Positions 14,086 through 37,278 of a DNA stretch of 64,000 nucleotides are shown in pieces (the stretch's first letter is position 1; each line of letters begins with the position of its first letter). The notes under the pieces were generated by a model. It was not told the DNA's origin. It searched no databases and saw only the letters and a program-made list of their open reading frames with translations. The stretch spans positions 1 through 64,000 of the forward strand of contig NZ_QVAI01000017.1 of the NCBI RefSeq assembly GCF_003427025.1, read 5' to 3'. Both the position numbers and the translations under genes were made by a program. The stretch is from Jiangella endophytica (GTDB lineage Bacteria; Actinomycetota; Actinomycetes; Jiangellales; Jiangellaceae).

Positions 14086-17000
14086 TCAGCTGCGGCCGGC
14101 GGCGGCGATGATGGCGCCCCGTTCGGCGCGGGTCAGCACGCCGTCGTGGACCAGGTGCTGGGTGACGCTGCGGACGTGCATGAGGAACCGGCCCTCGTTC
14201 GGCCACTCGATCTCGTCCTCGATGAGGTCCTCGACGGTGCAGCCGTCGTCGCGCTCGTAGTTCGGCACGCCGGAGTCGACGTCGCGGATGACGACCGTCG
14301 GGCTCTCGTCGGAGTCCGGGCAGGCGTCCGGCGGCTCGGACTCGAGCACGTGGAACCAGTCGAACGCGACGGTGGTCGCCTGCGTCTGTTCCTGGCCGAA
14401 CGCGTAGAGCCCGACGTCGGCCGTGGCCAGGCGGTCGTTCTCGATGACGCCCACCGGCTCGAAGGTCACGCCGTCGGAGCTGTAGTAGCCGGTGTAGGTC
14501 GTGCCGGTCTTCTCCAGCCGCAGCCACCAGGTCGTGACGCCATCGGGCAGGGTGACCTCGGGGAACGCGGGCTGGAAGATGTCGTCGATCTCGTGGCGCA
14601 TCTCGATCTTGCGCTCGCACGGCTCTCCGACCGGCGACGTACCGACGTAGTCGAGCTTGAGGAAGGTCCGGTCGCTCTCGTAGACCAGCAGGCCGCCCTG
14701 CTGCCAGCGCTCGCAGACCGGGCCGGACACCTTCGTCTCGATCACCCAGTCGCCCGCCGGCAGCGTCTGCAGCATGAGGTTCGGCGCGTTGTTGTGCTGG
14801 TCGAACAGGTTGGTCGGGGTGGTGTCGATCTTCAGCTGGCCGCCCTCGACCCGGAACCGGTTGAGGTCGGGCCGGACCACCTGGTCCCAGCGGCAGCCGT
14901 CCAGGCGGTCACCGTCGAACTCGTCGTCGGGCGCGGGGTCGCTGCCCGGGTCGGCGCACTCGATCGGCGGCGACGCCTCCGGCACGGCCTCGACGCGGAC
15001 GGAGTCGTGCGCCTGCGAGCCGGCGGCATCGGTGACGGTGACCGTCGGCCGGTACACGCCGGACAGCTCGTACGTGTGCGTGACCTGGGCCCCGGTGGCC
15101 GTCGTGCCGTCTCCGAAGTCCCAGGCGTAGGTGAGTTCCTGGCCCTCCGGGTCGGTGGCCTCGGCGCTCAGCGTCACCTCGTACGGCAGCTCGCCGGACG
15201 GCGGCGTCGCCTCGACCGACCAGATCTCCGGCCGCGCGTCGACGGAGACGCCCTTGCCGCGGAACTTCAGGTAGTTGAGGTTGAACAGGCCGGTCGACCC
15301 GGGCTCGTGCCGGAACACGAAGAACAGCTCGTGCGTGCCGCCGGGGTCCTCGACCGGGACCGTCACGTCGGTCCAGGACTGCCAGCCGCCGGTCGGCGGG
15401 ATGAACCCGCTGTCTCCGACGAGCGGGCCGTCCGGCGCGCCGGAGCGGATCTCGATGCGCCCGCCGCTGCCGCCGGACGCGAGACGGTAGGTGATGGCGT
15501 CGATCCCCGCGAGGTTCATCGGGTCGTAGGAGATGTAGTCGCCGTCGTCGATGAAGCCGATGTTCTGCCGGCCGCCGCGCGGGTCGCTGGTCGCCTCCAG
15601 CTGGACGCCGCTCTGCGTCTGGTAGTGCTCGGCCTCCTTGAGCTTGGGCTGCAGGACGTGCAGGTCGCGGCCGGTCAGCGCGCCGACACCGGCGCCGCCG
15701 CGGTCGGTGTAGCGGGCCTCCAGCACCCAGAACAGGTCCTCGCCGGCCGGGTGGCCGGCGTCGGTGCTGGTGGCGACGGTGCCCTCGCAGCCGGGCAGCA
15801 CCTCGACGGGGTGCGCGTGGCCCGCGTGCCCGAACAGCACCTGCAGGTCGACGCCGTCGCAGCCGATGCCGCTGCCGGTGGAGCCGTCCTCGGCGTCGGT
15901 GACGTCGATGCCGTACGCGATGTCGTCGCCGAAGTCGAAGAAGCCGCCGTCGGCCGGCGGGTCGAGCGTCACCTCCGGTGCGGTGTTGCCGGCGGTGATC
16001 TGGACGGTCTGCGAGCGGGTCGCGCCGTCCTCCGCCGTCACCGTCAGCCGGGCGGAGTACTGGCCGGCGACGGTGTAGGTGTGCTCCGGGTCGGGGTCGG
16101 CCGACTCGGCGCCGTCGCCGAACGCCCAGTGGTACGTGACCGGCAGGCCGCTCGGATGGCCGGAGCCCTCGCTGCTGAACCGCACCGTCAGCGGCAGCGC
16201 GCCGGACGTCGGGTCGGCGCTCACCTGCGCGACCGGCCGGGTGCCGACGCCGGTGTACTCGACCCGGTAGATGCCGGAGTCGGCGTTGTTGCCGCCGAAC
16301 CCGGTCCCCCACTCGATCAGGTACAGCGCACCGTCCGGCCCGAACGTCATGTCCATCGGGCGCAGGAACTCCATGCTGCTGAGCAGCGGGTTGACGTCGT
16401 GCACCGAATCGCCGTCGAGCCGGAACTCCCAGACGTCGTTGTCGAACGGCCGCACGTAGCCGTCCTCGGTGTTCGTCCACTCGTAGAACAGCGCGGCGCC
16501 GTCGTAGTAGGCCGGCCACTTGACGTCGGAGTCCAGCGACTCGTCGTAGCGGTAGACGGGGCCGGCCATCGCGCCGCCGCCGGTGCCCAGCTCCGGCCGG
16601 TTGGTACCGGTCTCGGAGCGGCCGTAGTAGACGTCCGGCGCGACCACCGGCGGGAGTTCGGCCAGTCCGGTGTTGTTCGGCGAGTCGTTGACCGGGTTCG
16701 CGCAGTCGAACGCCGGGCCGGCGGTGCGGGTGGCGAAGTCCCAGTCGCGGAACGGGCCGGCGCCGTGGCAGTAGGGCCAGCCGTAGTTGCCGGCCGCGGT
16801 GATGCGGTTCCACTCGACCTGGCCCTCGGTGCCCCGGTCCGGGTTCGCCTGCGGCGCGTCCGGGCCGTAGTCGCCGACCAGCAGCGCGCCGGTGGCACCG
16901 TCGACCTCGATGCGGAACGGGTTGCGAAAGCCCATCGCGTAGATCTCCGGCCGGGTCTGCGCGGTGCCGGACGCGAACAGGTTGCCGGCCGGCACGGTGT

Positions 17001-18405
17001 AGGTGCCGTCGGGCTCGGGGTGGATGCGCAGCACCTTGCCGCGCAGGTCGTTAGTGTTGCCGGAGCTGCGCTGGGCGTCGAACGAGCCCCGGCCGGGCCG
17101 CTCGTCGATCGGCGCGTAGCCCTCGGACTCGAACGGGTTGGTGTCGTCGCCGGTCGCGAGGTACAGGTTGCCGGCCGCGTCGAAGCTCAGGGAGCCGCCG
17201 GCGTGGCCCGAGACGGCCCGGTCGACCGGGACCTCGAGCAGCTGCACCTCACTGGCGAGGTCGAGCGTCGTGCCGGTGAGCGTGAACCGCGACAGCCGCT
17301 GCTCGGCCTGTGTCCCGTCGGGCGAGTAGTAGAGGTAGATCCAGCCGTTGCTGACGAAGTCGGGGTCCAGCGCGACGCCGAGCAGGCCGTCCTCGCGCTG
17401 CGTGTAGACGTCGAGCGTGCCGACGACGGTCGTCTGGCTGCTCTCCGGGTCGATCACCCGGACCTCTCCGGCCCGCTCGACGTAGACCACCCGGCCGTCC
17501 GCCGCGACGTCCAGCTCCATCGGGTTCGCCGTGCCGGTGTCGAGCGGGACCTTGTCGAAGCTGTCCCAGACGGTGCCGCCGCAGTCGGCCGCTGTCGCGC
17601 CGGCCGCGGTCTCGATGCCGCCGAGCAGGTGCTGCAGGAACTCCGGCTCGGCGTAGCTCTCGGTCGTGTGGCCGCCGGCGGTGTACCAGGCGCGGCCGCC
17701 GTCGTAGGTCTGGCACCAGGCGATCGGGTGGTCCAGGCCCATCGGGTTCGCCTCGGGGTCGTACGTGGACTCGTCCAGGCTGGCCAGCACGTGCACGTCG
17801 CCGCGCGGGTTGGTGCGGAAGCTGTACCACTCGTCGAACCGCTCCCAGCCGGCGTCCAGGTGAGCGGTCGAGGGGTGGGTGCGGTCGGCGACCTGGATGG
17901 TGGCGTCCTGGTTGCGCGGGTGACCCTGGAAGTAGGCGCCGACCAGCTCGCCGTACCACGGCCAGTCGTACTCGGTGTCGGACGCGGCATGGACCCCGGC
18001 GTAGCCGCCGCCGGCCTGGATGTAGCGCTCGAACGCCGCCTGCTGGTCGTCGTTCAGGACGTCGCCGGTGGTGGACAGCCAGACGACGGCGTCGTACTGG
18101 GCGAGGTTCTCGTCGGTGAACGCGGTGGCGTCCTCGGTGGCGGTGACGGTGAACTCGTGCTCGGCGGCCAGTTGCTGGATCGCGGCGATGCCGGCCGGGA
18201 TCGAGTCATGCCGGAACGCGGCCGTCTTCGAGAACACGAGGATCGAGTAGCCGCCGTGTCCGGGGTGGGCAGCGGCCTCGGGCGCCTGCGCTGCCTGCGC
18301 GCCGAGCGCGGCCAGCAGCCCGGCGATCAAGGCGACGACCGCGACCAAAGCGGCCGGTCTGCGCGGGTGTCGGGCGCGTCTGCGGCGCGGTCCGGGCTGA
18401 GCCAT
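14086..18405 (-). CDS. Secreted ThuA / PQQ-type sugar dehydrogenase / PKD / CBM6 / DUF1080-like protein
   Basis: 1439 aa with a twin-Arg-rich N-terminus and signal helix (PAALVAVVALIAGLLAAL). Domains in order, approximate residues: ThuA class-I-amidotransferase-like (50-245; ILVFSKTAAFRHDSI, GGGYAGVHAASDTEYDWPWY, GGRAWYTAGGHTTESYAEPE); glucose/sorbosone dehydrogenase beta-propeller (265-685; GLLGVALDPDF, SGHAGGSLSFDAAGNLYLATGD, AMGFRNPFRI, PDGALYLIEWGTGF); PKD (695-775); a Cys-containing linker domain; CBM6-like (EAEHYQTQSGV, DDGDYISYDPMNL); second PKD (TYAWDFGDGTTATG); a DUF1080/LamG-like domain (DEFDGDRLDGCRWDQVVRP); and a short acidic tail. ATG at 18405 has GGAGAGG 8 nt upstream. It probably binds and oxidises or trims extracellular polysaccharide. 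Its promoter carries two operator-like sites. Confidence 0.88.
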   Translation of the reverse strand: MAQPGPRRRRARHPRRPAALVAVVALIAGLLAALGAQAAQAPEAAAHPGHGGYSILVFSKTAAFRHDSIPAGIAAIQQLAAEHEFTVTATEDATAFTDENLAQYDAVVWLSTTGDVLNDDQQAAFERYIQAGGGYAGVHAASDTEYDWPWYGELVGAYFQGHPRNQDATIQVADRTHPSTAHLDAGWERFDEWYSFRTNPRGDVHVLASLDESTYDPEANPMGLDHPIAWCQTYDGGRAWYTAGGHTTESYAEPEFLQHLLGGIETAAGATAADCGGTVWDSFDKVPLDTGTANPMELDVAADGRVVYVERAGEVRVIDPESSQTTVVGTLDVYTQREDGLLGVALDPDFVSNGWIYLYYSPDGTQAEQRLSRFTLTGTTLDLASEVQLLEVPVDRAVSGHAGGSLSFDAAGNLYLATGDDTNPFESEGYAPIDERPGRGSFDAQRSSGNTNDLRGKVLRIHPEPDGTYTVPAGNLFASGTAQTRPEIYAMGFRNPFRIEVDGATGALLVGDYGPDAPQANPDRGTEGQVEWNRITAAGNYGWPYCHGAGPFRDWDFATRTAGPAFDCANPVNDSPNNTGLAELPPVVAPDVYYGRSETGTNRPELGTGGGAMAGPVYRYDESLDSDVKWPAYYDGAALFYEWTNTEDGYVRPFDNDVWEFRLDGDSVHDVNPLLSSMEFLRPMDMTFGPDGALYLIEWGTGFGGNNADSGIYRVEYTGVGTRPVAQVSADPTSGALPLTVRFSSEGSGHPSGLPVTYHWAFGDGAESADPDPEHTYTVAGQYSARLTVTAEDGATRSQTVQITAGNTAPEVTLDPPADGGFFDFGDDIAYGIDVTDAEDGSTGSGIGCDGVDLQVLFGHAGHAHPVEVLPGCEGTVATSTDAGHPAGEDLFWVLEARYTDRGGAGVGALTGRDLHVLQPKLKEAEHYQTQSGVQLEATSDPRGGRQNIGFIDDGDYISYDPMNLAGIDAITYRLASGGSGGRIEIRSGAPDGPLVGDSGFIPPTGGWQSWTDVTVPVEDPGGTHELFFVFRHEPGSTGLFNLNYLKFRGKGVSVDARPEIWSVEATPPSGELPYEVTLSAEATDPEGQELTYAWDFGDGTTATGAQVTHTYELSGVYRPTVTVTDAAGSQAHDSVRVEAVPEASPPIECADPGSDPAPDDEFDGDRLDGCRWDQVVRPDLNRFRVEGGQLKIDTTPTNLFDQHNNAPNLMLQTLPAGDWVIETKVSGPVCERWQQGGLLVYESDRTFLKLDYVGTSPVGEPCERKIEMRHEIDDIFQPAFPEVTLPDGVTTWWLRLEKTGTTYTGYYSSDGVTFEPVGVIENDRLATADVGLYAFGQEQTQATTVAFDWFHVLESEPPDACPDSDESPTVVIRDVDSGVPNYERDDGCTVEDLIEDEIEWPNEGRFLMHVRSVTQHLVHDGVLTRAERGAIIAAAGRS

Positions 18406-18495
18406 GAGCGGTTCCTCTCCGTTGAGTCCCCCTGCCCCACTGCCCCCCGTGCCTTGCCCGGCCTGGCTGCGCATTCGTCTGGGCGCCCGCCGAAT

Positions 18496-25795: not shown

Positions 25796-26836
25796 ATGAC
25801 CCGCCGCCCACGGGCCGCGCTCGCCGCCGGCCTCGTCGCCGCCGCTCTCGGCCTCACCGCCTGTTCCGGCGACGGCACCGAGCCCGACGCCGTCGCCGCC
25901 GCCTCCGACGACACCCTGGTCGTCTACAACGCGCAGCACGAGCAACTCACCCAGGAGTGGGCCGACGCGTTCACCGAGGAGACCGGCATCGAGGTCGTCC
26001 TGCGCAACGGGTCCGACGCCGAGCTGGGCAACCAGCTGGTCCAGGAGGGCGACCGGTCGAGGGCGGACGTGTTCCTCACCGAGAACTCGCCCGCGATGTC
26101 ACTGGTCGAGAACGCGGGCCTGCTGGCGCCCGTCGACCAGGCGACGCTGGACCAGGTGCCGGAGCAGTACCGGCCGTCGTCGGGGCTGTGGACGGGCATC
26201 GCCGCGCGCTCCACCGTGTTCGTCTACAACCCGGACGAGCTGTCCGAGGCCGAGCTGCCGGCGTCGATCATGGACCTCGCGGGGCCCGCCTGGAAGGGCC
26301 GCTGGGGCGCGGCGCCGGGCGGCGCTGACTTCCAGGCCATCGTGTCCGCGATCCTCGAGCTGGAGGGCACCGACGCGACCAGCGCCTGGCTGGACGGGAT
26401 GAAGGAGAACGTCACCGTCTACCAGAACAACATCGCGACCATGAAGGCCGTCAACGCCGGCGAGGTACCGGGCGGGATCATCTACCACTACTACTGGTTC
26501 CGCGACCAGGACGGCACCAAGGAGAACAGCGGCAACACCGAGCTGCACTACTTCCGCAACCAGGACCCGGGCGCTTTCGTCAGCGTCTCCGGCGGCGGCG
26601 TGCTCGCGTCGAGCCGGAACCAGGACGAGGCGCAGCAGTTCCTCGCGTTCCTCACCGGCAGCACCGGCCAGGAGATCCTCGGCACCGGCTACAGCATGGA
26701 GTACCCGGTGGCCGGCGGCGTCCCGGCCAACCCGGCACTGCCTCCGCTGGACACGCTGCAGGCGCCCGCCGTCGACCCGTCGAACCTCAACAGCGTCGAG
26801 GTCACCGATCTGATGACGGACGCAGGGCTGCTCTAG
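25796..26836 (+). CDS. Fe(III) ABC transporter substrate-binding lipoprotein (FbpA-like)
   Basis: 346 aa. Lipoprotein signal with lipobox LTAC-SG at about residue 22-23. The mature part is a type II periplasmic-binding-protein fold: DTLVVYNAQHEQLTQEWADAF, RADVFLTENSPAMSLVENAGLL, GIAARSTVFVYNPDELSEAELP. In the C-terminal lobe GGIIYHYYWFRDQDG supplies the adjacent Tyr pair typical of the iron-ligating site of FbpA proteins. First gene of a three-gene importer operon preceded by an iron box. It delivers ferric iron, free or from weak chelators, to the permease. Confidence 0.92.
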   Translation: MTRRPRAALAAGLVAAALGLTACSGDGTEPDAVAAASDDTLVVYNAQHEQLTQEWADAFTEETGIEVVLRNGSDAELGNQLVQEGDRSRADVFLTENSPAMSLVENAGLLAPVDQATLDQVPEQYRPSSGLWTGIAARSTVFVYNPDELSEAELPASIMDLAGPAWKGRWGAAPGGADFQAIVSAILELEGTDATSAWLDGMKENVTVYQNNIATMKAVNAGEVPGGIIYHYYWFRDQDGTKENSGNTELHYFRNQDPGAFVSVSGGGVLASSRNQDEAQQFLAFLTGSTGQEILGTGYSMEYPVAGGVPANPALPPLDTLQAPAVDPSNLNSVEVTDLMTDAGLL

Positions 26837-26846
26837 GAGTCACGCC

Positions 26847-28418
26847 GTGTCCGTCACCTCCGTTCAGACACCGCGGCGCGCGGGCCGCGACGCCGGCCCC
26901 CGCCCGCCCGTCGCACTGGTCGTCGTCTGCGCCGCGCTGGCGATCGTGCTGCTGGTGCCGCTCGGCTACGTCGTCTCCGTGGTCGCCGACGTCGGCTGGG
27001 CGACACTGGAGCCGCTGATCTTCCGGCCGCGGGTCGGCGAGCTGCTGGTCAACACCGTCCTGCTGGTGGTGCTGGGGGTGCCGCTGACGGTGCTGCTGGG
27101 CGTCGGCGGGGCGTGGCTGGTGGAGCGGACGACGCTGCCGGCGCGGCGGTTCTGGGCGGTCGTCCTGGTGGCGCCGCTGGCGATCCCGGCGTTCGTGAGC
27201 AGCTACGGGTGGGCCAGTGTGGTGCCGTCGATCCACGGGCTCAGCGGCGGGCTGCTGGTGTCGGTGCTGGCGTACTACCCGCTGGTGTACCTGCCGGCGA
27301 TGGCGGCGATCCGCGGGCTGGACCCGGCGCTGGAGGAGTCGGCGCGGTCGCTGGGCTCGAGTTCGTGGGCGGTGTTCGGCCGGGTCGTGCTGCCGCAGCT
27401 GCGCCTGGCGGTCCTGGGCGGCGGGCTGATCGTCGCGCTGCACCTGCTGGCGGAGTACGGCGCGTTCGCGTTCATCCGGTTCGACACGTTCACGACGGCG
27501 ATCGTCGTGCAGTACCAGTCGACGTTCGCCGGCCCCGCGGCCGGCGCCCTGGGCGTCGTCCTGTCAGCACTGTGCCTGACGTTGCTGATCGCGGAGGCGG
27601 GTGCGCGTGGCCGGGCGCGGTACGCGCGCATCGGGTCGGGGGCGCCACGGGCGGCGGTGCCGCAGCGGCTCGGCGCCTTCACACCGCTGGTACTGCTGGC
27701 GCTCGCCGCGCTGGGCGTCGCCGCCGTCGCCGTCCCGCTGGCGAGCGTGGTGCGATGGCTGGGGCGGGGCGGCGGGGGCGGTGCGTGGTCGCAGCCCGAG
27801 CTGCCGGCGGCCTTGACGCAGACGGTGCTGCTGGCCGGCGGCGGCGCGGTGGCGGCCGTGCTCGTGGCGCTGCCGCTGGCCTGGCTGACGGCGCGGCACC
27901 CCGGCCCGCTCGCCCGGCTGCTGGAGGGCACGTCGTACGTCGCCGCCAGCCTGCCGGCGATCATCGTCGCGCTCGCGCTGGTGACGGTGACCCTGCGGGT
28001 GCTGCCGGGGCTCTACCAGACGGCGTTCACCGTCGTGCTCGCCTACGTCATGATCTTCCTGCCGCGGGCGTTGGTGCCGCTGCGGTCCGGGATCGCGCAG
28101 GCGCCGGTCGCGCTGGAGGAGACGGCACGGTCACTCGGCTACACGCCGCTGGTCGCGCGGCTGCGGGTCACGCTGCCGCTGCTGGTGCCGTCGCTCGCCG
28201 CCGGTGCCGCGCTGGTCGGGCTCGGCGCCGCCAACGAGCTGACGGCGACGCTGCTGCTCGCGCCGACCGGCACCCGGACCCTCGCGACCCAGTTCTGGTC
28301 GCAGGCGTCGGCGATCGACTACCCGGCCGCGGCGCCGTACGCGCTGCTGCTGATCCTGCTGTCGGTGCCGGCGGTCGCGCTCATGTTCGCCCAGTCACGG
28401 AGGTGGGGTGTCCGATGA
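26847..28418 (+). CDS. Fe(III) ABC transporter permease (FbpB-like, duplicated)
   Basis: 523 aa with about twelve membrane helices in two halves, as in FbpB/SfuB. Each half carries an EAA coupling loop: EESARSLGSSSWAVFGRVVLP and EETARSLGYTPLVARLRVTLP. The N-terminal 25 residues are basic and cytoplasmic. GTG start 11 bp after the SBP stop; its stop overlaps the ATPase ATG (ATGA). Forms the membrane pore of the iron importer. Confidence 0.92.
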   Translation: MSVTSVQTPRRAGRDAGPRPPVALVVVCAALAIVLLVPLGYVVSVVADVGWATLEPLIFRPRVGELLVNTVLLVVLGVPLTVLLGVGGAWLVERTTLPARRFWAVVLVAPLAIPAFVSSYGWASVVPSIHGLSGGLLVSVLAYYPLVYLPAMAAIRGLDPALEESARSLGSSSWAVFGRVVLPQLRLAVLGGGLIVALHLLAEYGAFAFIRFDTFTTAIVVQYQSTFAGPAAGALGVVLSALCLTLLIAEAGARGRARYARIGSGAPRAAVPQRLGAFTPLVLLALAALGVAAVAVPLASVVRWLGRGGGGGAWSQPELPAALTQTVLLAGGGAVAAVLVALPLAWLTARHPGPLARLLEGTSYVAASLPAIIVALALVTVTLRVLPGLYQTAFTVVLAYVMIFLPRALVPLRSGIAQAPVALEETARSLGYTPLVARLRVTLPLLVPSLAAGAALVGLGAANELTATLLLAPTGTRTLATQFWSQASAIDYPAAAPYALLLILLSVPAVALMFAQSRRWGVR

Positions 28419-29464
28419 CCACGCTGTCTCTCGCCGGCGTCGCCAAGTCGTTCGGCCGGGTCGAGGTCCTGCGGGACGTGTCGCTGACGGTGCCCGCCGG
28501 GACCCGCACCGCCGTCGTCGGGGCGTCCGGGAGCGGGAAGAGCACGCTGCTGCGGCTGATCGCCGGGTTCGAGCGGGCCGACGAGGGCTCCATCACGCTG
28601 GGATCGACGACCCTGGCCGGGCCGGGCCGGTTCGTCGCGGCCCACCGCCGCGGCATCGGCTACGTCGCCCAGGACGGCGCGCTGTTCCCGCACCTCACCG
28701 TCGAGCAGAACGTCCGGTTCGGGTTGCCGCGGCGGCACCGCGACCCCGCCCGCGTCCGCGAGGTCATGGAGCTGGCCTCGCTCGACCCCGCGCTGGCCGG
28801 CCGATACCCGCACCAGCTCTCGGGCGGGCAGCAGCAGCGGGTCGCGCTGGCCCGCGCCCTCGCCCCGCGGCCCGCCGTCGTCCTCCTCGACGAGCCGTTC
28901 AGCGCCCTCGACACCGGGCTGCGCGACCAGACCCGGCAGGCCGTCATCGACGCCCTCGAGGCGAGCGACGTCACCACCGTGCTCGTCACCCACGACCACG
29001 ACGAGGCGCTCTCGTTCGGCCGGCAGATCGCGGTCATCGCCGCCGGCCGGCTGGTGCAGTCCGGCCCGCCGTCGGCGGTCTTCGACAACCCCGTCAGCAC
29101 CGAGATCGCCGCCTTCCTCGGCGCGGCGATCGTGCTGCCCGCATCGACGTCCGGCGCGGACGGCGTGGAGTGCGCGCTCGGCCGGGTCCCCGTCCGGCAC
29201 GACCGCACCGGCGGCGGCCCGGCCGCCCGGCTCCTCCTCCGGCCGGCGCAACTGGGGCTGAGCCCCGCGAACGGCACCCACAACGCCGTCGTCGAGGACG
29301 TCCGCCCACGCGGGTCGCACGCGGAGCTGCTGCTGCGGACCGCGGGGGCGGCGCCGGTGCTGATCCCGCTGCGCGTGCCGGCCCACGAAGGCCCCTCCTA
29401 CCACGCCGGGATGACCGTCTCGGTCACCGTCACCGGCGGCGGGGTGCTCTACCCGGCAGACTGA
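28415..29464 (+). CDS. Fe(III) ABC transporter ATP-binding protein (FbpC-like)
   Basis: 349 aa. Walker A GASGSGKST, Q-loop GYVAQDGALFPHLTV (the FbpC/CysA-type AQDGALFPH), signature LSGGQQQRVALARAL, Walker B VVLLDEPFSALD, and switch THDHDEALSFGRQ. A C-terminal TOBE-like regulatory domain (about 240-349) is present (RLLLRPAQLGLSP). It starts at 28415 in an ATGA overlap with the permease. Its last 35 bp overlap the 3' end of the convergent adenylation/acyltransferase gene. Confidence 0.93.
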   Translation: MTTLSLAGVAKSFGRVEVLRDVSLTVPAGTRTAVVGASGSGKSTLLRLIAGFERADEGSITLGSTTLAGPGRFVAAHRRGIGYVAQDGALFPHLTVEQNVRFGLPRRHRDPARVREVMELASLDPALAGRYPHQLSGGQQQRVALARALAPRPAVVLLDEPFSALDTGLRDQTRQAVIDALEASDVTTVLVTHDHDEALSFGRQIAVIAAGRLVQSGPPSAVFDNPVSTEIAAFLGAAIVLPASTSGADGVECALGRVPVRHDRTGGGPAARLLLRPAQLGLSPANGTHNAVVEDVRPRGSHAELLLRTAGAAPVLIPLRVPAHEGPSYHAGMTVSVTVTGGGVLYPAD

Positions 29465-31964
29465 CCAGCGTCGTCACCCGGCCGGCGAACCACCGGACGG
29501 CGACGCCGGCGGCGAGGGAGGCGGCCAGGGCGAGGCCCGGGTGGATGTCGTCCAGCCAGGGGTAGACCTGCCAGTGGACCAGGTAGACGTAGAGCGAGCT
29601 GCCGGCCAGCACGGCCACCACCCGGTGCAGCGGCGCCGGGCAGGGCACGGTCGCCAGCCACACCAGCAGCGCCACTCCGCCGACGATCGCCAGATCGCGC
29701 GCGGAGTCGCCGAAGAAGCCGGGCACGGTCGCCGCCAGCACGACCGTCAGCCCGAGCCGCTGCCACCACCGCGACGCCCGCGCCGCCGCCCAGCCGAACG
29801 CGAACAGCCAGAACACCGGCATGGTGTGCGGGACGCCGAGGTCGACCAGCTCGTAGCGGCCGAGCAGCCCGAGCCCGAGCAGCACGACCGGGAACGCGAA
29901 CGGGAACCGCCGCTCCAGCCGGTCGACGAACGGGACGGCGAGCAGGGCGGCCAGGACGACGAGGATGTAGAGGAGCACCTCGACGAACCAGAAGTGCCAG
30001 GCCGGCGTCCATGACGGCGGCCCCAGCAGGCCGTTGAGCAGCAGCACGTTGAGCGGCCCGTACTGGTCGGTCAGCAGCACCACGCCACCGATCCAGACGA
30101 CGGCGGGCACGGCGATCCGCGCGATGCTGACCGCCTGCTGCCGCAGCCGCGTCACCCGGCCGGCGGCGGTCAGCCGGAACCGGGCGAACCCGAAGCCGGC
30201 CACCGCTATCAGCACGTGCGCGCCTCCGAGCAGCGTGAACAGGCCGGCGTGGGTGCCGACGACGCAGACGATCGCCAGCGCCCGCAGCGCCGCACCGGTC
30301 TCGACCCGGCGCATCCGCCACCGACCGCGACGGGCGACGGCGGGCGCGGCGGCCAGCTCGCGGATCGGCGTCAGGTGCCAGTTCGCGGGGACGGTACCGA
30401 GCTCGTCCTCCAGCCGGATCGACACCTCGACGTAGGAGAGCGAGTCGCCGCCGAGGCCGGCGAACGTGCTGTCGAGCGACGCGTCGGGGCGGCCGAGCAG
30501 CTCGGCGTACAGGGCCCGCAGGCGCTCCGGCAGCGGCCCGCCGTCGTCCGCGGGAGCGGTGGACGAGGACGCGGCCGCCGCCGTCACCAGCGCACCCAGC
30601 GCCGGGTAGTCGACCTTCCCGCTGGCCAGCCGCGGCGTCTCCGCGACGGCGGCGACGGTGACCGCCCCGGCGGGCAGGCCGAACCGGCCGGCGATCTCCT
30701 GACGGACGTCGTCAGGCGCGGCTCCCTCGACGGCGACCAGCAGCGCACCATCCGCACCGGTGCACCGGACGGAGACGCCCGGCCCCGTCAGCGCCGCCTC
30801 GACGTGGTCGAGGTCGACCCGCAGCCCGGCGATCTTCACGAACCGGCTGCGCCGCCCGACGATCTCGTACAGCCCACCGGCCGTGCGCCGGGCGAGGTCG
30901 CCGGTGCGCAGCGCCGTCACCGTCCGGCCGAGCGCGAGATCGGCGGGCGACGTCGCATACCCGAGCATGACGTTCGGCCCGCGGTAGACCAGCTCGCCGA
31001 CGTCCCGCGTCGTCGCCTCGGGCGCCGGCTCGAGGGTGAACGAGCCGCCCGGGATCGGCACGCCCACCGCCTCCGGATGGGCCGCTGCGAGCGCCGGCGG
31101 CAGGTACGCCATCCGCGCGGTCGCCTCGGTCTGCCCGTACATGACGACGAAGTCCCAGCCGTCGCGCCGCCCCAGCCCGGCGTAGCGGCGCACGTGCTCC
31201 GGGTCGAGCCGCCCGCCGGCCTGGGTGACGTAGCGCAGCCGCGGCAGCCGCCGGCCGGCGAACCCGACGCGGTCGAGCAGGTCGAACGTGTGCGGGACGC
31301 CGGCCAGCGCCGTCGCGCCCTCGGCCCGGAACAGGTCCCAGAAGCAGGCGTCCGCGACGGACAGGTCGGTGAGCACCACCGCCGCCCCGCGCAGGAGGTG
31401 GGTGTTCACGACGGACAGCCCGTACACGTAGTGCATCGGCAGCGTCGTGACCGCTCGGTCGGTGTCGCGGATGCCGAGGAACGTCACGATCGACTCCGCG
31501 TTGGCCTGCACGTTCTCGTGCGACAGCCGGGCCAGCTTCGGAGACCCGGTCGACCCGGACGTCGGCATCAGCAGCGCCAACTCCGGGTGAAGGTCGTGCG
31601 CGGACGCCGCCCGGCGCACGTCCAGCTCGCCGCCGGGCAGCAGCACGGCGTCCGGGTCGTACGCGGCCGCGACGGCGCCGGCCTGCGCGGGCGGCACCAG
31701 CAGCGCGACGTGCCCGGCGGCCAGCGCGGCGAGGTACGTGACCAGCTGGCCGGCGTCGTTGGCACCGCTGACGAGCACCAGCTTCCGGCCGGCGCCGAGC
31801 CGGTCCGCCGTCGCGCCGACCCGCTGGGCCAGCTCGCGGTGGGTCCAGCGCTGCGTGCCGGCGACGACGGCGAGCCGGTCCCCGTGGCGGGCGAGGTCGC
31901 GCGCGAACGGGACGGCGGCAGGAGTGGCGGCCGAGGGCTGGGACAGCGGCGACACCAGCGTCAT
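29430..31964 (-). CDS. Adenylation-carrier-membrane acyltransferase fusion protein
   Basis: 844 aa. Residues about 20-455 are an ANL-family adenylation domain: P-loop PTSGSTGSPK (134-143), YGQTEATARMAY (276-287), TGDLAR (354-359), and catalytic Lys450 in ASGKVDYPAL. Residues about 480-540 are a carrier protein with phosphopantetheine Ser508 in FAGLGGDSLSYVEV. Residues about 555-844 are an acyltransferase-3 membrane domain with some ten helices; TM1 has the conserved Arg561 and His572 (RALAIVCVVGTHAG). The expected reaction is acid activation, loading on the carrier, and transfer to an acceptor at or across the membrane, like DltA, DltC and DltB in one chain. The acyl substrate is unknown. The ATG at 31964 has GGAG upstream, and an IdeR-like box lies 22 bp further. 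Convergent with fbpC. Confidence 0.85.
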   Translation of the reverse strand: MTLVSPLSQPSAATPAAVPFARDLARHGDRLAVVAGTQRWTHRELAQRVGATADRLGAGRKLVLVSGANDAGQLVTYLAALAAGHVALLVPPAQAGAVAAAYDPDAVLLPGGELDVRRAASAHDLHPELALLMPTSGSTGSPKLARLSHENVQANAESIVTFLGIRDTDRAVTTLPMHYVYGLSVVNTHLLRGAAVVLTDLSVADACFWDLFRAEGATALAGVPHTFDLLDRVGFAGRRLPRLRYVTQAGGRLDPEHVRRYAGLGRRDGWDFVVMYGQTEATARMAYLPPALAAAHPEAVGVPIPGGSFTLEPAPEATTRDVGELVYRGPNVMLGYATSPADLALGRTVTALRTGDLARRTAGGLYEIVGRRSRFVKIAGLRVDLDHVEAALTGPGVSVRCTGADGALLVAVEGAAPDDVRQEIAGRFGLPAGAVTVAAVAETPRLASGKVDYPALGALVTAAAASSSTAPADDGGPLPERLRALYAELLGRPDASLDSTFAGLGGDSLSYVEVSIRLEDELGTVPANWHLTPIRELAAAPAVARRGRWRMRRVETGAALRALAIVCVVGTHAGLFTLLGGAHVLIAVAGFGFARFRLTAAGRVTRLRQQAVSIARIAVPAVVWIGGVVLLTDQYGPLNVLLLNGLLGPPSWTPAWHFWFVEVLLYILVVLAALLAVPFVDRLERRFPFAFPVVLLGLGLLGRYELVDLGVPHTMPVFWLFAFGWAAARASRWWQRLGLTVVLAATVPGFFGDSARDLAIVGGVALLVWLATVPCPAPLHRVVAVLAGSSLYVYLVHWQVYPWLDDIHPGLALAASLAAGVAVRWFAGRVTTLVSLPGRAPRRR

Positions 31965-31986: not shown

Positions 31987-32005
31987 TAAGGCGAGCCTTA
32001 CCTTA
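31987..32005 (-). promoter_or_regulatory. DtxR/IdeR-like iron box upstream of the adenylation-acyltransferase gene
   Basis: TAAGGCGAGCCTTACCTTA is a 19-bp interrupted palindrome (seven of nine arm pairs) with about 14/19 matches to TTAGGTTAGGCTAACCTAA. On the minus strand it overlaps a TAAGGT-type -10 element. With the box before fbpABC it suggests that both transcription units flanking this locus are iron-repressed. Confidence 0.72.
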
Positions 32006-32073: not shown

Positions 32074-35000
32074 TCAGAACCGCAGCCACGTCCCGGCCAG
32101 CGGCTGCTGCTCGACGCCGGGCCGGGTGTAGTCGCAGACTCCGCCGTCGAACACGGTCGTGAGGCGTTCCCACTGCGCGTCGGTCCAGTCCACGGCGTAG
32201 TCCGAGCGCAGTGGCTCCCGCAGCGCACACTTGACGACGTCGGCGGCGACGGACTCGCCGGCCACCTCGCGCGGGAACGACGCCGTCGGGTACAGCTGCT
32301 CGCAGGCGCTGGACGGATCGCGGGCCAGCCGCTCGGCGATGAAGACCGGCTCGGCGTCGCGGGTCATGCATCCCTCGACCAGCGCGGCGGGCCGGGCCGC
32401 GGCCACCCGCTCGACGCCCGGCTCACCCGGCGACACCGCCAGCGTCCGCAGCCATGCGTCCATGCCGTCGACGGCATGACGCAGCAGCGGGCTGTCGGTG
32501 CTGAAGCCGGCGTAGCGCATGTCCTCGACCAGCCCCACGACGTTCGCGGCGGACCCGTTGGCCTTCTCCAGCCGGGCGAGCATCGAGAACGAGTGGTAGC
32601 GCACGTGCAGCTCACCGTTCGGGTTGTCGTCGCGGTAGGTGCGGTAGTCGATGATCGGGATCTCGGCCAGTCCGCCACCGCCGCTGGTCAGCCGGCCGGT
32701 GCGGTAGGCGGCCCGGATGGCCACCGGGTCGCCTGTCGTCCGCGACGGCACCAGGTTGGCGTCGTGGTCGAACCCGCCGACGTGCTCGTTGAGGTCGAGG
32801 AACTGGTCCGGAGTGATCGTCGCGTCGTTCAACGCGGCCAGGCCGTACTGGACGCCGACGTTGTCGAGCGGGCGACGGGCGAATCCCGTCGCCGGGTCGC
32901 GGCCGTAGACGTTGGCGGCGTGGTCGTAGACACCGCACCGGACGCCGCCGGGGTTGGCCGACGGGTCGTAGCGCTGCGCCTCCGGCACCATCGCGCAGTA
33001 GGAGCGCGGATCGATCCTGCGGGCGCCCTCCGCGACGGTGGCCGCGGTGGCGTCCGTGGCGAACCCGGTGACGGCCATCCGCTCCGCCTCGGTCCACGCC
33101 GCACCGCGGCCGGTGAAGTAGGCGTCCAGCAGCCAGGCGTCGGAGATCATGTTGACGGTCGCGAAGCCGACGTCGGGGAACGAGCAGCCGACGATGATGC
33201 CGTCGAGGATCCCCGGGTAGTTGTCCGCGATCTGGTAGGCCTGGTACGAGCCACCGGAGCAGCCGAAGCCGATCACGTGGTCGACCGGCCCGTACCGCTC
33301 GACGAACCGCTCCTTCACCATCGACGCGGTCTCGGCCGCCGTCACGTCGTTGCAGTTCGAGCCGAACACGTTGAGCGACGACGACATCAGCCCGTACCCC
33401 TGCCCGAGCAGGTACGGTTCGACCACACCTCCGGTGTTGCGGCCCTGCCGGTACCAGCCGTTGGTGCATCCGCCGCCGAAGGTGAACACGGTCGCGCCGT
33501 TCCAGGCCGGTGGCGGCGCGGACGGGCCGGGCGCGGCGTCGGAGAGCGGGTCGTGCAGCACGGTGGTCTGGTAGACGGCGCGGTTGACGGTGCCGGTCTC
33601 CATGCGCACGACGAACGGCACCCGCACGCCGCCGCTGGTGGTCGTGGTGACCAGGTCGGCCGGGTACTCGGTGGCACCGGCCGGCCACGGCGCGAACGTG
33701 TCGCCCGTCGTGCGGTAGAAGTGGTCGACGCGGCCCGCGATCGAGCAGTTCTCGTCCAGCGGGGCGCCGAGCGTGCCGCCGATGACCGGCACCGTGAACT
33801 GCGCGGTCTCGCAGCGGAACGGCTGCTGGTGCGGCCCGGAGAAGACCGGCCCCTCGATCGGGTGACCCGCCAGCCTGGCGGTGGTGCGCGACGCCGCCGT
33901 CCCGGCCTGCGCGGCCAGGACGTTGGCGCCGTCGCGCAGCCCGGCGACCAGGCCGGTCAGTGAACGACCGGCCTCGTCCGGAACGAGTGACGCGGTGACG
34001 TCGACGTCGTTGACGCTGACCGCGACGGCGTCCAGCGGCACCGCGTCGTCCGCGACGTCGACCCGTACCAGAGCGTCGTCGCCGGTCACCGCGTCGGGCC
34101 GGCTCGACAGCACGCTCAGCGCGAGCGTGCCGTCGCCCTCGGAGTCACCGGCCTCCGGTGTGGTGACGGTGACCGTGCCGGACGCGCGTCCGGCCCGCGC
34201 CGGGCGGCCGGGGTCGGGCTCGGCGAACGCGTAAACGCGGACCTCGTACGCCGTCTCCGGCGCCAGCCCGGTGACGTCGAGCGAGGTCTCCCCCGCGCCG
34301 ACCCGGCCGGCCAGCTCCCACAGCTCGGTGCCGGCGACGCGCAGCTCGACGTCGTAGCCGTCCGCTCCGCCGGTGGCGTCCCACGAGACCCGCGCCGCCG
34401 ACGGCGACGACGCGCTCGCCGTCACGCCGGTGACCTCGCCGGGTACCGGGTCGCGGGTGACCATGACCGCGTCGGCGATCACGAACCCGTCCGCGGCGTT
34501 GGACAGCTCCACCCGCCCGGCCGCGCCCGCCTCGAACCGGTACGCCCCGAGGTCCACCCAGACCCCCGGCCGCGTGTCGCCGACGACCCGGGCCTGACCG
34601 CGTTGGTCGACCCGCACCGTGGTCGCGCCGTCGGCGTGGTGCACGGTGAACGGCGCGTCGGAGGCGCGGTTGGCGTGCGCGACGGCCCAGGCCAGCACGT
34701 GGTACTCCCCCGTGACCGGCACGTCGACCTGCCAGCCGGCAGTCCGGTCGCCGGTGCCGGCCGGCGCGGACCGGTAGCTGACGCCGTAGTACGGGTGGCC
34801 GGCCTGCCCGGTGGACCGGCTCCACGTGCCGGTCATCCGGAACGCGCCGACCGACTCGTCGTCGAGGACGATGTCGCGGTGCGCCTCGTCGGACGGGTGC
34901 TCGGCGGTGATCAGCGTGAGCTCGTCGGGCGCGATCGTCGTGCCGCCGAGCCGGCCGGGCTCCAGCAGCGTGAACCGGATGCGGTGCAGTCCGCGCTCCA

Positions 35001-37278
35001 GGTCGACGGTGCCGTGCTGATAGGTCTGGTAGGCGGCGCCGACGTCCAGGCTCGGGTCGAACACGCCGTCGGGCAGCACCTGCCCGTCGACGCTCACCTG
35101 GATCCGGCCCGCGTCCTGGCCGCGGGCGTACCGGACGGCGACCTCGAAGGCACCGTCGTCGCGGGTCAGCCGGAACGGCAGCTCCAGGTAGTCGCCCGGG
35201 CCCGTGGCGGCGTAGCGGAGCGCGGCGCCGCCGCGGGCGTTCTCATCGGCGACGGCCTCCGGACGCGGCTCGGGCACCCGCTCGCGGACGGTCCGGTCCA
35301 GCGGCAGGTGGACGACGGGGTCGGCGGCGCCGTCGGCGTCCCGCGAGCCGGCGAGCGCCGCGACCTCGTCCGCCGTCAGCACCCGGTCGTAGAGCCGGAC
35401 CTCGTCGACGCCGCCGACGAGCCGGTTCGCGCCGTCGGGCCGCTGCCCGACGTGGATGCCCTCGCGGGCGCTGAACGCGAGGTCACCGGTCGGCGTGGCC
35501 GCCTGAGCGACCGGCACGCCGTCGACGTACAGCTCGATCGAGCCGCCGCCACGGGTCAGCGCGACGTGGTGCCACCGTCCGTCGGCGTACGCGCCGGGCG
35601 CGGTGAGCGAGGCGGTCGCCTGACCGGTGTCGACGAGCGCCTGGATCCGGTCGCTGCCCGGCTCGGCGCGCAACCACCACTGCGCGGTGGCCGAGCCCCA
35701 GCCGTAGGCCCACAGGACCGACTGGGAGTCCTGGCCACTGGTCCGGAACCAGGCCGACGCGGTGAACGTGTCGCCGGCGCCGCGGACCGCGGCGGTCGCC
35801 GGGACCTCCAGGTGGTCCTCGCCGCCGAGGGCGAGCCCGCCGTCGGCCGCGACCGGCGCGCCGGTGACGACCGCGTCGTTCCCGCCGGCGACGTCATGGG
35901 TGATGGTCCGCGTGGCCGGCGGGCCGGTGGGCGGCCGGGTCTTCGCGCCGGCGGCGTCGCCGAGCTCGACGGCGTGCTCCGTCAGGCCGGTGGCGCCGGT
36001 GTCGCGGCCGCCGGTCAGCCAGGTGAGATCGAACCGGGCGACGGCCAGCCGCGCGGGCGAGCCGAGGATCTCGCCGTCGCGGCCGTAGAACAGCAGGATC
36101 GTGCCGTCGGACAGCACCGCGAGATCGGAGTAGTACGACGGACCCGGGTTGACGATCGTGTCGTAGCGGTAGGTCGCGCCGTCGTCATAGCTGACGGAGA
36201 CGGTGAGCGCCTCGCGGCGAGCGGAGTCGGGCCGGGCGTGCAGCAGGCGGCCGACGCCGTCGGGACCCTCGAAGCGCAGGAACCCGGCGTCGACGGCGGG
36301 GTAGCGGCCGGTCGCGGGCTCGATCACCGGGTCGGACCACGTCTCGCCGCCGTCGGTGCTGACGGCGCTGATCCGCTGCCGGTGCCCGCCCGCCGCCGAC
36401 CGCCCGTTGACGACGATCGCGCCGTCGGCGCGCTCGTAGATGCGGCTCTCGTTGATCGGGTAGTTGACGTCGACCGGGATCGGCTCGCCGGTCTGCCAGC
36501 TGGCGCCGTGGTCGTCGCTGTAGATCATCGAGACGCCGTAGAGCCGCTCCGGGGTCGTGTGGCCGACGACCTCGCGGCGGTGCAGCACCTGCATGACCAG
36601 GCGGCCGTCCTCCAGCTGGATGCCGTGGCCGGGGCCGGGGCCGTGCAGCGTCCAGTCATAGGGGTTGCCGGCGAACAGCTCGTCCAGCTCGACCGGGGCG
36701 CTCCAGGTGACGCCGTCGTCGGTACTGCGGCTCAGGTAGATCTCCTGGCGGTCGCCGGAGCAGCCGGTGTTGCCCGGGTCGAGCAGCGACAGGCCGAAGA
36801 ACAGGAAGATCTCACCGGTGTCGCCGTCGACGACCGGCGTCGGGTTGCCCCACGACTGCCCGTCGTCCGACGGGACGACGATGCGGCTCGGCTCCCACGT
36901 GTCGCCGGCGTCGGTGCTACGGCGCAGGACGATGTCGCGCGGCCCGGCGTCGCAGACCTCGTGCCGGCCCTCGGTGAACGCCAGGATCGTGTCCGCCTGC
37001 GTCACCGCCAGGCCCTGCACGTGATAGCTCTCGTGCGGGCCCTCGGCGGAGTCCCACAGGACGGTCTCGTCGAACTCCCCCGGCCGGTCGGCGGTGGCGC
37101 CCGCGGTCTCCGTGCCCGCCTGGCCGGCCGTGCCCGCCTGGCCGGCCGTGGCCGCCTGGCCGGCCGTGCCCGCCTGGCCGGCCGTCGCCGCCGGGGCCAG
37201 TCCCGCCACCACCACGGCGGCCAACGCCACGCCCATCGCCCGCCACCGCCGCCGAGTTCGCCACGTCCGTCGTCGCAC
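32074..37278 (-). CDS. Secreted BNR/sialidase-like, LamG, Fn3 and DUF6351 hydrolase fusion
   Basis: 1734 aa, exported (basic N-terminus, GVALAAVVVAGLAPAATA). Then AGQAGT-type repeats. About 45-410: six-bladed BNR propeller with Asp boxes STDAGDTW, STDDGVTW, SDDHGASW, STDGGETW, SYDDGATY, and CDAGPRDIVLRRSTDAG as in exo-sialidases. About 450-660: LamG. About 680-830: carbohydrate-binding-like domain. About 830-985: golvesin/CBM-like domain. About 990-1085: Fn3. About 1095-1734: DUF6351 alpha/beta hydrolase with nucleophile elbow GFGCSGGSY. The sialidase FRIP Arg is absent (SYHVQGLAV) and the Glu partner of the nucleophile Tyr (PSYYSDLA) is replaced, so classic sialidase activity is doubtful. 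GTG at 37278 follows AGGAGGCGGC, which partly overlaps a palindromic operator. Confidence 0.85.
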   Translation of the reverse strand: MRRRTWRTRRRWRAMGVALAAVVVAGLAPAATAGQAGTAGQAATAGQAGTAGQAGTETAGATADRPGEFDETVLWDSAEGPHESYHVQGLAVTQADTILAFTEGRHEVCDAGPRDIVLRRSTDAGDTWEPSRIVVPSDDGQSWGNPTPVVDGDTGEIFLFFGLSLLDPGNTGCSGDRQEIYLSRSTDDGVTWSAPVELDELFAGNPYDWTLHGPGPGHGIQLEDGRLVMQVLHRREVVGHTTPERLYGVSMIYSDDHGASWQTGEPIPVDVNYPINESRIYERADGAIVVNGRSAAGGHRQRISAVSTDGGETWSDPVIEPATGRYPAVDAGFLRFEGPDGVGRLLHARPDSARREALTVSVSYDDGATYRYDTIVNPGPSYYSDLAVLSDGTILLFYGRDGEILGSPARLAVARFDLTWLTGGRDTGATGLTEHAVELGDAAGAKTRPPTGPPATRTITHDVAGGNDAVVTGAPVAADGGLALGGEDHLEVPATAAVRGAGDTFTASAWFRTSGQDSQSVLWAYGWGSATAQWWLRAEPGSDRIQALVDTGQATASLTAPGAYADGRWHHVALTRGGGSIELYVDGVPVAQAATPTGDLAFSAREGIHVGQRPDGANRLVGGVDEVRLYDRVLTADEVAALAGSRDADGAADPVVHLPLDRTVRERVPEPRPEAVADENARGGAALRYAATGPGDYLELPFRLTRDDGAFEVAVRYARGQDAGRIQVSVDGQVLPDGVFDPSLDVGAAYQTYQHGTVDLERGLHRIRFTLLEPGRLGGTTIAPDELTLITAEHPSDEAHRDIVLDDESVGAFRMTGTWSRSTGQAGHPYYGVSYRSAPAGTGDRTAGWQVDVPVTGEYHVLAWAVAHANRASDAPFTVHHADGATTVRVDQRGQARVVGDTRPGVWVDLGAYRFEAGAAGRVELSNAADGFVIADAVMVTRDPVPGEVTGVTASASSPSAARVSWDATGGADGYDVELRVAGTELWELAGRVGAGETSLDVTGLAPETAYEVRVYAFAEPDPGRPARAGRASGTVTVTTPEAGDSEGDGTLALSVLSSRPDAVTGDDALVRVDVADDAVPLDAVAVSVNDVDVTASLVPDEAGRSLTGLVAGLRDGANVLAAQAGTAASRTTARLAGHPIEGPVFSGPHQQPFRCETAQFTVPVIGGTLGAPLDENCSIAGRVDHFYRTTGDTFAPWPAGATEYPADLVTTTTSGGVRVPFVVRMETGTVNRAVYQTTVLHDPLSDAAPGPSAPPPAWNGATVFTFGGGCTNGWYRQGRNTGGVVEPYLLGQGYGLMSSSLNVFGSNCNDVTAAETASMVKERFVERYGPVDHVIGFGCSGGSYQAYQIADNYPGILDGIIVGCSFPDVGFATVNMISDAWLLDAYFTGRGAAWTEAERMAVTGFATDATAATVAEGARRIDPRSYCAMVPEAQRYDPSANPGGVRCGVYDHAANVYGRDPATGFARRPLDNVGVQYGLAALNDATITPDQFLDLNEHVGGFDHDANLVPSRTTGDPVAIRAAYRTGRLTSGGGGLAEIPIIDYRTYRDDNPNGELHVRYHSFSMLARLEKANGSAANVVGLVEDMRYAGFSTDSPLLRHAVDGMDAWLRTLAVSPGEPGVERVAAARPAALVEGCMTRDAEPVFIAERLARDPSSACEQLYPTASFPREVAGESVAADVVKCALREPLRSDYAVDWTDAQWERLTTVFDGGVCDYTRPGVEQQPLAGTWLRF
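37121..37195. repeat. 18-bp coding tandem repeat after the signal peptide
   Basis: Repeats of a GCCTGGCCGGCCGTGCCC-type unit, some with GTGGCC/GTCGCC variants, encode the AGQAGT/AGQAAT stretch between the signal peptide and the first blade of the BNR domain. Near-identity of the units suggests a length-variable linker. Confidence 0.7.

Follow-up and report, generated by a model that had tools for sequence, protein, structure and literature searches.

Sialidases and Tannase-Like Hydrolases

The sialidase of Micromonospora viridifaciens (1EUR/2BER) and the fungal KDNases of Aspergillus and Trichophyton (7p1f, 7p1q) are the closest described counterparts of the propeller considered here, and both belong to GH33. 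Members of this family combine the sialidase propeller fold with Asp boxes, an acid/base Asp, a Tyr/Glu nucleophile pair, and a complete Arg triad with its Y/FRIP motif. The FRIP Arg is regarded as a hallmark of sialidases, and E386 of 1EUR is presumably the Glu that buttresses it in GH33 structures. The KDNases share the fold and keep the Arg triad, and they represent a GH33 specificity other than Neu5Ac. In T. forsythia NanH, the Tyr/Glu nucleophile pair consists of Y518 and E407, and mutation of the FRIP Arg inactivates the enzyme (PMC9472817).

The other domain involved is DUF6351 (PF19878), which carries the Pfam label “Tannase-like family of unknown function.” A literature search found no functional study of DUF6351, and the protein described below could assign a first function to it. 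PF19878 members in other classes are mostly short frames in which no fused module was seen, whereas here a sialidase-type propeller is fused to the domain.

Gene and Modular Architecture

The gene occupies positions 32074..37278 (reverse strand) of the window, i.e., the whole 64,000-nucleotide stretch of DNA that was analyzed from the soil actinobacterium Jiangella endophytica, whose genome measures 7.85 Mb. The window is part of contig C9 (171,504 bases). The gene starts with GTG, has an AGGAGG-type ribosome site immediately 5′, and encodes a multidomain protein of 1734 residues which is predicted to be secreted. All the features of this protein listed below are on the same strand.

The chain begins with a signal-peptide-like N-terminus, Arg-rich and then hydrophobic (residues 1-34; 37177..37278), followed by a short GQAGTA repeat tract (37081-37176). 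The sialidase-fold propeller comes next (residues 70-430; 35989..37071), as identified by Pfam BNR_2/BNR_3, an AF2 model, and structure overlay. It is followed by a Laminin_G_3/concanavalin-like module, LamG (residues 485-640; 35359..35826; Pfam E 3e-26), a CBM35-like module with a weak Pfam match (residues about 668-795; 34894..35277), a Golvesin_C module (residues 803-942; 34453..34872; Pfam E 5e-33), and a fibronectin type III (fn3) module (residues 948-1021; 34216..34437; Pfam E 5e-10). The solved Paenibacillus xanthan lyase 6f2p matches the CBM35-like region together with Golvesin_C. The C-terminus is formed by DUF6351, a tannase-like domain of the alpha/beta-hydrolase type (residues 1054-1726; 32101..34119), supported by Pfam (E 7e-235) and by hhalign to tannase. 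BNR_2 (E 3e-32) and DUF6351 thus stand in one open reading frame, as the first-pass annotation had proposed. Its picture of two joined domains holds for both ends of the protein, but it overlooked the four modules between them.

Propeller Fold and Active Site

The AF2 model of the propeller (pLDDT 93) superposes on the Micromonospora sialidase (VIA) with a Z of 45 and about 2.0 Å over 330 residues, i.e., it is a standard sialidase propeller. The five Asp boxes noticed earlier were located at residues 121, 185, 254, 307, and 363, and the EGR-type block was found as EGRHEVCDAGPRDIVLRRSTDAG.

Alignment with 1EUR indicates that most of the catalytic residues are retained. Asp110 (36949..36951) corresponds to the acid/base D92, Tyr383 (36130..36132) to the nucleophile Y370, and Glu277 (36448..36450) to E260, the partner of the nucleophile, whereas Arg293 (36400..36402) and Arg355 (36214..36216) correspond to R276 and R342. 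Conversely, the FRIP Arg (R68) is replaced by His86 in SYHVQ (37021..37023), as had been suspected, and E386, the Glu adjoining the FRIP Arg, is replaced by Gly399 (36082..36084). Of the sequence and fold features that define GH33, only the E386-type Glu and the complete Arg triad with its Y/FRIP motif have no match, two of the three Args being present. No Arg triad elsewhere in the propeller is evident, judged by the overall overlay of the predicted model. Beyond these two substitutions, the Jiangella protein differs from the M. viridifaciens sialidase in its accessory modules and in the C-terminal DUF6351.

The first-pass annotation had also claimed that the nucleophile Tyr lacks its Glu partner. 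That Glu is present as Glu277 (in PINESR), aligned with Micromonospora E260 and found in 77/77 propellers. Since the GH33 Tyr/Glu pair uses the E260-type Glu, the claim was a misassignment: LLFYGRDG lacks the equivalent of E386 in 1EUR, a Glu which adjoins the FRIP Arg.

A Branch with an Altered Sugar-Binding Pocket

Across the 77 aligned propellers the positions of E260 and R276 are invariant, those of the Tyr and of R342 are nearly so, and the acid/base Asp is conserved. The FRIP Arg and its adjacent Glu vary together: after de-replication at 80%, 13 propellers have both (R/E), one has the Arg without the Glu, one has the Glu without the Arg, and 18 have neither. Fisher's test for this covariation gives p 3e-7, a value which ignores phylogeny and includes a few distant non-R rows of doubtful alignment. 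The covariation is best supported by the presence of both R/E and H/G paralogues within a single genome.

The H/G state is present in Jiangella, Phytoactinopolyspora, Streptomyces, and Nonomuraea and in some Verrucomicrobia and Phycisphaerae, whose propellers show 38-40% identity; a Kribbella propeller has F/G in its place. The branch occurs mostly without DUF6351, and the other two triad Args are retained in essentially all of its members. A hallmark of sialidases is therefore lost together with its neighboring Glu while the catalytic machinery stays intact. The altered pocket marks a conserved and apparently uncharacterized branch of the sialidase family, and its members probably act on some sugar acid that is not ordinary sialic acid. 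This would be a specificity that sequence annotation now labels “sialidase.” Tentatively, the H/G propellers of Actinomycetota, Verrucomicrobia, and Phycisphaerae may be taken as a separate, uncharacterized class of specificity within the sialidase superfamily. The actinobacterial ones would then free an unassigned sugar acid for a dedicated catabolic operon, and in Jiangellaceae the joined esterase would make a one-protein remover of acylated sugars.

The DUF6351 Domain

DUF6351 matches its profile over the full length (782 bits against a cut-off of 22.4). The motif GFGCSGGSY reported earlier lies at residues 1337-1345; within it, Ser1341 (33256..33258) is the presumed nucleophile, and His1558 (32605..32607) is presumed to be catalytic. 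Both are invariant in 36/36 aligned DUF6351 sequences. The AF2 model of the domain, built from a four-sequence alignment, reached a pLDDT of 33, so the assignment of these residues rests on sequence.

The relation to tannases and feruloyl esterases (PF07519) is partial. The profile comparison by hhalign (Prob 82, E 1e-5 at the nucleophile elbow; about 100 residues, two-sequence profile) agrees with the Pfam label, the elbow is similar (GCSGGS in DUF6351, GCSNGGR in tannases), and the subsequent IAD.YPGILDGI segment is alike. The elbow Cys, i.e., the CS of the CS-D-HC motif, is present in 16/36 DUF6351 members including the Jiangella fusion protein, but the HC part is absent, His1558 being followed by Val and not Cys. 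PF07519 gave no match to the fusion protein at E up to 10 and none in the window's genome. As both the profile and the HC motif fail, the domain is not filed as a tannase. A PDB search with the DUF6351 profile returned weak matches at the nucleophile elbow, to oligopeptidase B (E 0.003) and to a feruloyl esterase (E 0.05).

Other DUF6351 fusions occur in the order. Two have a long N-terminal region with weak similarity to DUF6923 (L164:4411-9114 and L165:6947-11509), and one begins with F5/8C and cadherin-like modules (L166:8099-11035). In the window's genome, a copy on contig C7 is followed, after 33 bp, by a BNR-LamG gene with the classical R/E pair, and one copy on C9 adjoins FAD_oxidored and GH2 genes. 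Without being proof, these contexts support a carbohydrate-linked esterase role.

Conservation and Loss of the Fusion

The same architecture recurs in four other Jiangella genomes (G002, G006, G007, and G009, J. rhizosphaerae) with 62-94% identity per module, the final part of DUF6351 being frame shifted in G009. It is also found in Phytoactinopolyspora G016 (P. alkaliphila), G018, and G019 (P. limicola), and G017 of this genus has an interrupted copy. Among 394 sampled genomes of the class, from 137 genera, close relatives of the propeller (E ≤ 1e-85) are confined to Jiangella and Phytoactinopolyspora, so the fusion appears to be specific to their family; a search found no relatives in viral contigs. 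Purifying selection maintains both halves, whose median dN/dS is about 0.2 (propeller, 0.21; DUF6351, 0.23). An assembly error, which the first-pass annotation had kept in mind, or an annotation error is excluded for practical purposes by this selection and by the recurrence in several assemblies of two genera, and nothing was found in its support.

Conversely, the Jiangella orthologues in G001, G005, and G010 end just past fn3, and their flanks hold no convincing trace of DUF6351. On a tree built from the part common to all, the DUF6351 module must have changed at least three times. With the fusion present in both genera, these changes can be read as two Jiangella losses plus a single Phytoactinopolyspora change; an ancestral fusion would imply that the three Jiangella orthologues reflect two or more independent losses. 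The module is dispensable, and these three orthologues make an obligatory tandem action unlikely. The contribution of the esterase-like domain could be read directly from a comparison of natural orthologues that have or lack DUF6351.

The Propeller Operon and Sialic Acid Catabolism

Many actinobacterial H/G propellers are the last genes of a conserved operon which encodes, in order, an MGH1-like glycoside hydrolase, a FAD_oxidored protein (PF12831), a DHDPS-family enzyme (the keto-acid-aldolase family), and the propeller. The operon was found at five Jiangella paralogue loci and in four Phytoactinopolyspora, three Streptomyces, and one Nonomuraea genome (L070, L072-L074, L076, L079, L082-L085, L088, and L065-L068), often with a family-5 ABC transporter; in a second Nonomuraea, the DHDPS gene adjoins the propeller. 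In Phytoactinopolyspora, the operon has a family-5 solute-binding protein before the MGH1-like glycosidase and ends with the fusion itself or its tandem copy without DUF6351, and in two of these genomes PhyH and an AraC-type regulator follow the propeller. In Jiangella, the operon propeller is a paralogue of the H/G type, 50% identical to the fusion, and the copy of the window's own genome lies on C22. No description of this gene combination was found in a literature search, and the operon opens a direct way to find the substrate.

The DHDPS-family enzymes are related to class I keto-acid aldolases but are not NanA equivalogs, scoring far below the NanA cut-off. In the window's genome, none of the 16 family relatives exceeds the 382-bit cut-off of the NanA equivalog. 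It has been reported that the nan cluster for sialic acid catabolism is present in 0/17 Jiangellales genomes surveyed (PMC8754123). A galactose-Kdn polymer is a component of Streptomyces walls (PMC11481543) and may be suggested as one plausible natural substrate.

Function of the Fusion Protein and Rival Explanations

The reading preferred here, to which we assign a probability of about one half, is that a predicted secreted, modular protein that attacks glycans combines a retaining exo-glycosidase, specific for an anionic sugar different from Neu5Ac, with an ester-removing module; its activity, its substrate, and the order of action we infer from the features above. The propeller would be a catalytically competent enzyme of the GH33 fold, in which Tyr383 and Glu277 form the nucleophile pair and Asp110 serves as acid/base. 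Its carboxylate pocket would be remodeled, with His and Gly in place of the FRIP Arg and its Glu and the other two Args in place, which makes an anionic ulosonic-acid-type sugar (Kdn, Kdo, or another 2-keto-3-deoxy acid), and not ordinary Neu5Ac, the most likely preferred substrate. LamG, the CBM35-like module, Golvesin_C, and fn3 may keep the propeller on or near a polysaccharide, while DUF6351 would act as a Ser-His hydrolase of the tannase/feruloyl-esterase type, removing esters from the same or a neighboring glycan, a step that would be helpful and not required. In related genomes, where the H/G propeller is part of an operon for uptake and catabolism, the aldolase-family enzyme would process the released keto acid. 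Several points count against this reading: with the R276 and R342 equivalents kept, ordinary sialosides could still be cleaved; several orthologues have lost DUF6351, which speaks against a strict coupling; the fusion stands outside the operon in Jiangella itself; and the DHDPS-family enzymes score far below the NanA cut-off and come from a family which also holds non-sugar enzymes. The first-pass annotation, which proposed a tandem attack on an acylated glycan as a possible mode of action, had likewise joined a propeller glycosidase of nonclassic specificity to an esterase-like domain. This agrees with the joint loss of the FRIP Arg and Glu across the branch and with the 0/17 nan clusters (PMC8754123), but the reason it gave, loss of the nucleophile's Glu partner, was wrong.

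Alternatively, the propeller could be a retaining glycosidase that acts on a neutral sugar, and the lack of a C1 carboxylate in its substrate would account for the partial dismantling of the Arg pocket. The joint loss of Arg and Glu over the whole branch, the co-occurrence of its members with an MGH1/trehalase-type glycosidase, and the absence of a nan cluster in Jiangellales (PMC8754123) are in its favor; yet essentially all members preserve the two remaining triad Args and an aldolase-family enzyme adjoins the propeller, and this alternative is considered unlikely. Less likely still is an ordinary sialidase or KDNase in which His86 substitutes for the FRIP Arg. The fold and all the other catalytic residues are those of GH33, and the Kdn polymer of Streptomyces walls (PMC11481543) would offer a substrate, but mutation of the FRIP Arg inactivates T. 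forsythia NanH (PMC9472817), the adjacent Glu is lost as well, and Jiangellales have no nan cluster. The altered binding pocket and the several binding-type modules of the chain would also suit a noncatalytic lectin that targets DUF6351 as the only enzyme. This appears improbable, given that acid/base, nucleophile, and the nucleophile's Glu are conserved, that three orthologues retain the propeller without DUF6351, and that the H/G branch is mostly without it.

Genomic Surroundings in Jiangella

In Jiangella, the fusion gene lies away from the operon, between an AMP-ligase gene and a ZnuA-type zinc locus, and an ABC-transporter locus (25796-29404 in the window) is found beyond the AMP-ligase gene. 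The latter, downstream of the fusion (29430-31964, reverse strand), encodes an AMP-binding domain, a phosphopantetheine site, and a membrane acyltransferase_3 in one protein, an unusual fusion. A 19-base palindromic iron-box-like motif, TAAGGTAAGGCTCGCCTTA, stands just before it (31987-32005), and a near-identical motif occupies the same place in G001, G005, and G010. The idea that this AMP-ligase/acyltransferase acylates the target of DUF6351 was set aside, as the palindrome lies before its gene, the gap to the fusion gene is 109 bases, and the gene calls for Phytoactinopolyspora show no comparable gene next to the fusion.

Elsewhere in the window, 14086-18474 (reverse strand) encodes a 1462-residue protein with ThuA, GSDH, CBM6, two PKD, and GH43_C2-type modules. 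Contig C7 of the same genome (G000) carries, at about 52-140 kb (L012, L014-L016), a large region for glycan degradation that includes several BNR genes, GH106 and GH78-type rhamnosidases, a sulfatase, DUF2264, a SASA-type gene (the sialic-acid acetylesterase family), and NanA-like DHDPS-family genes.
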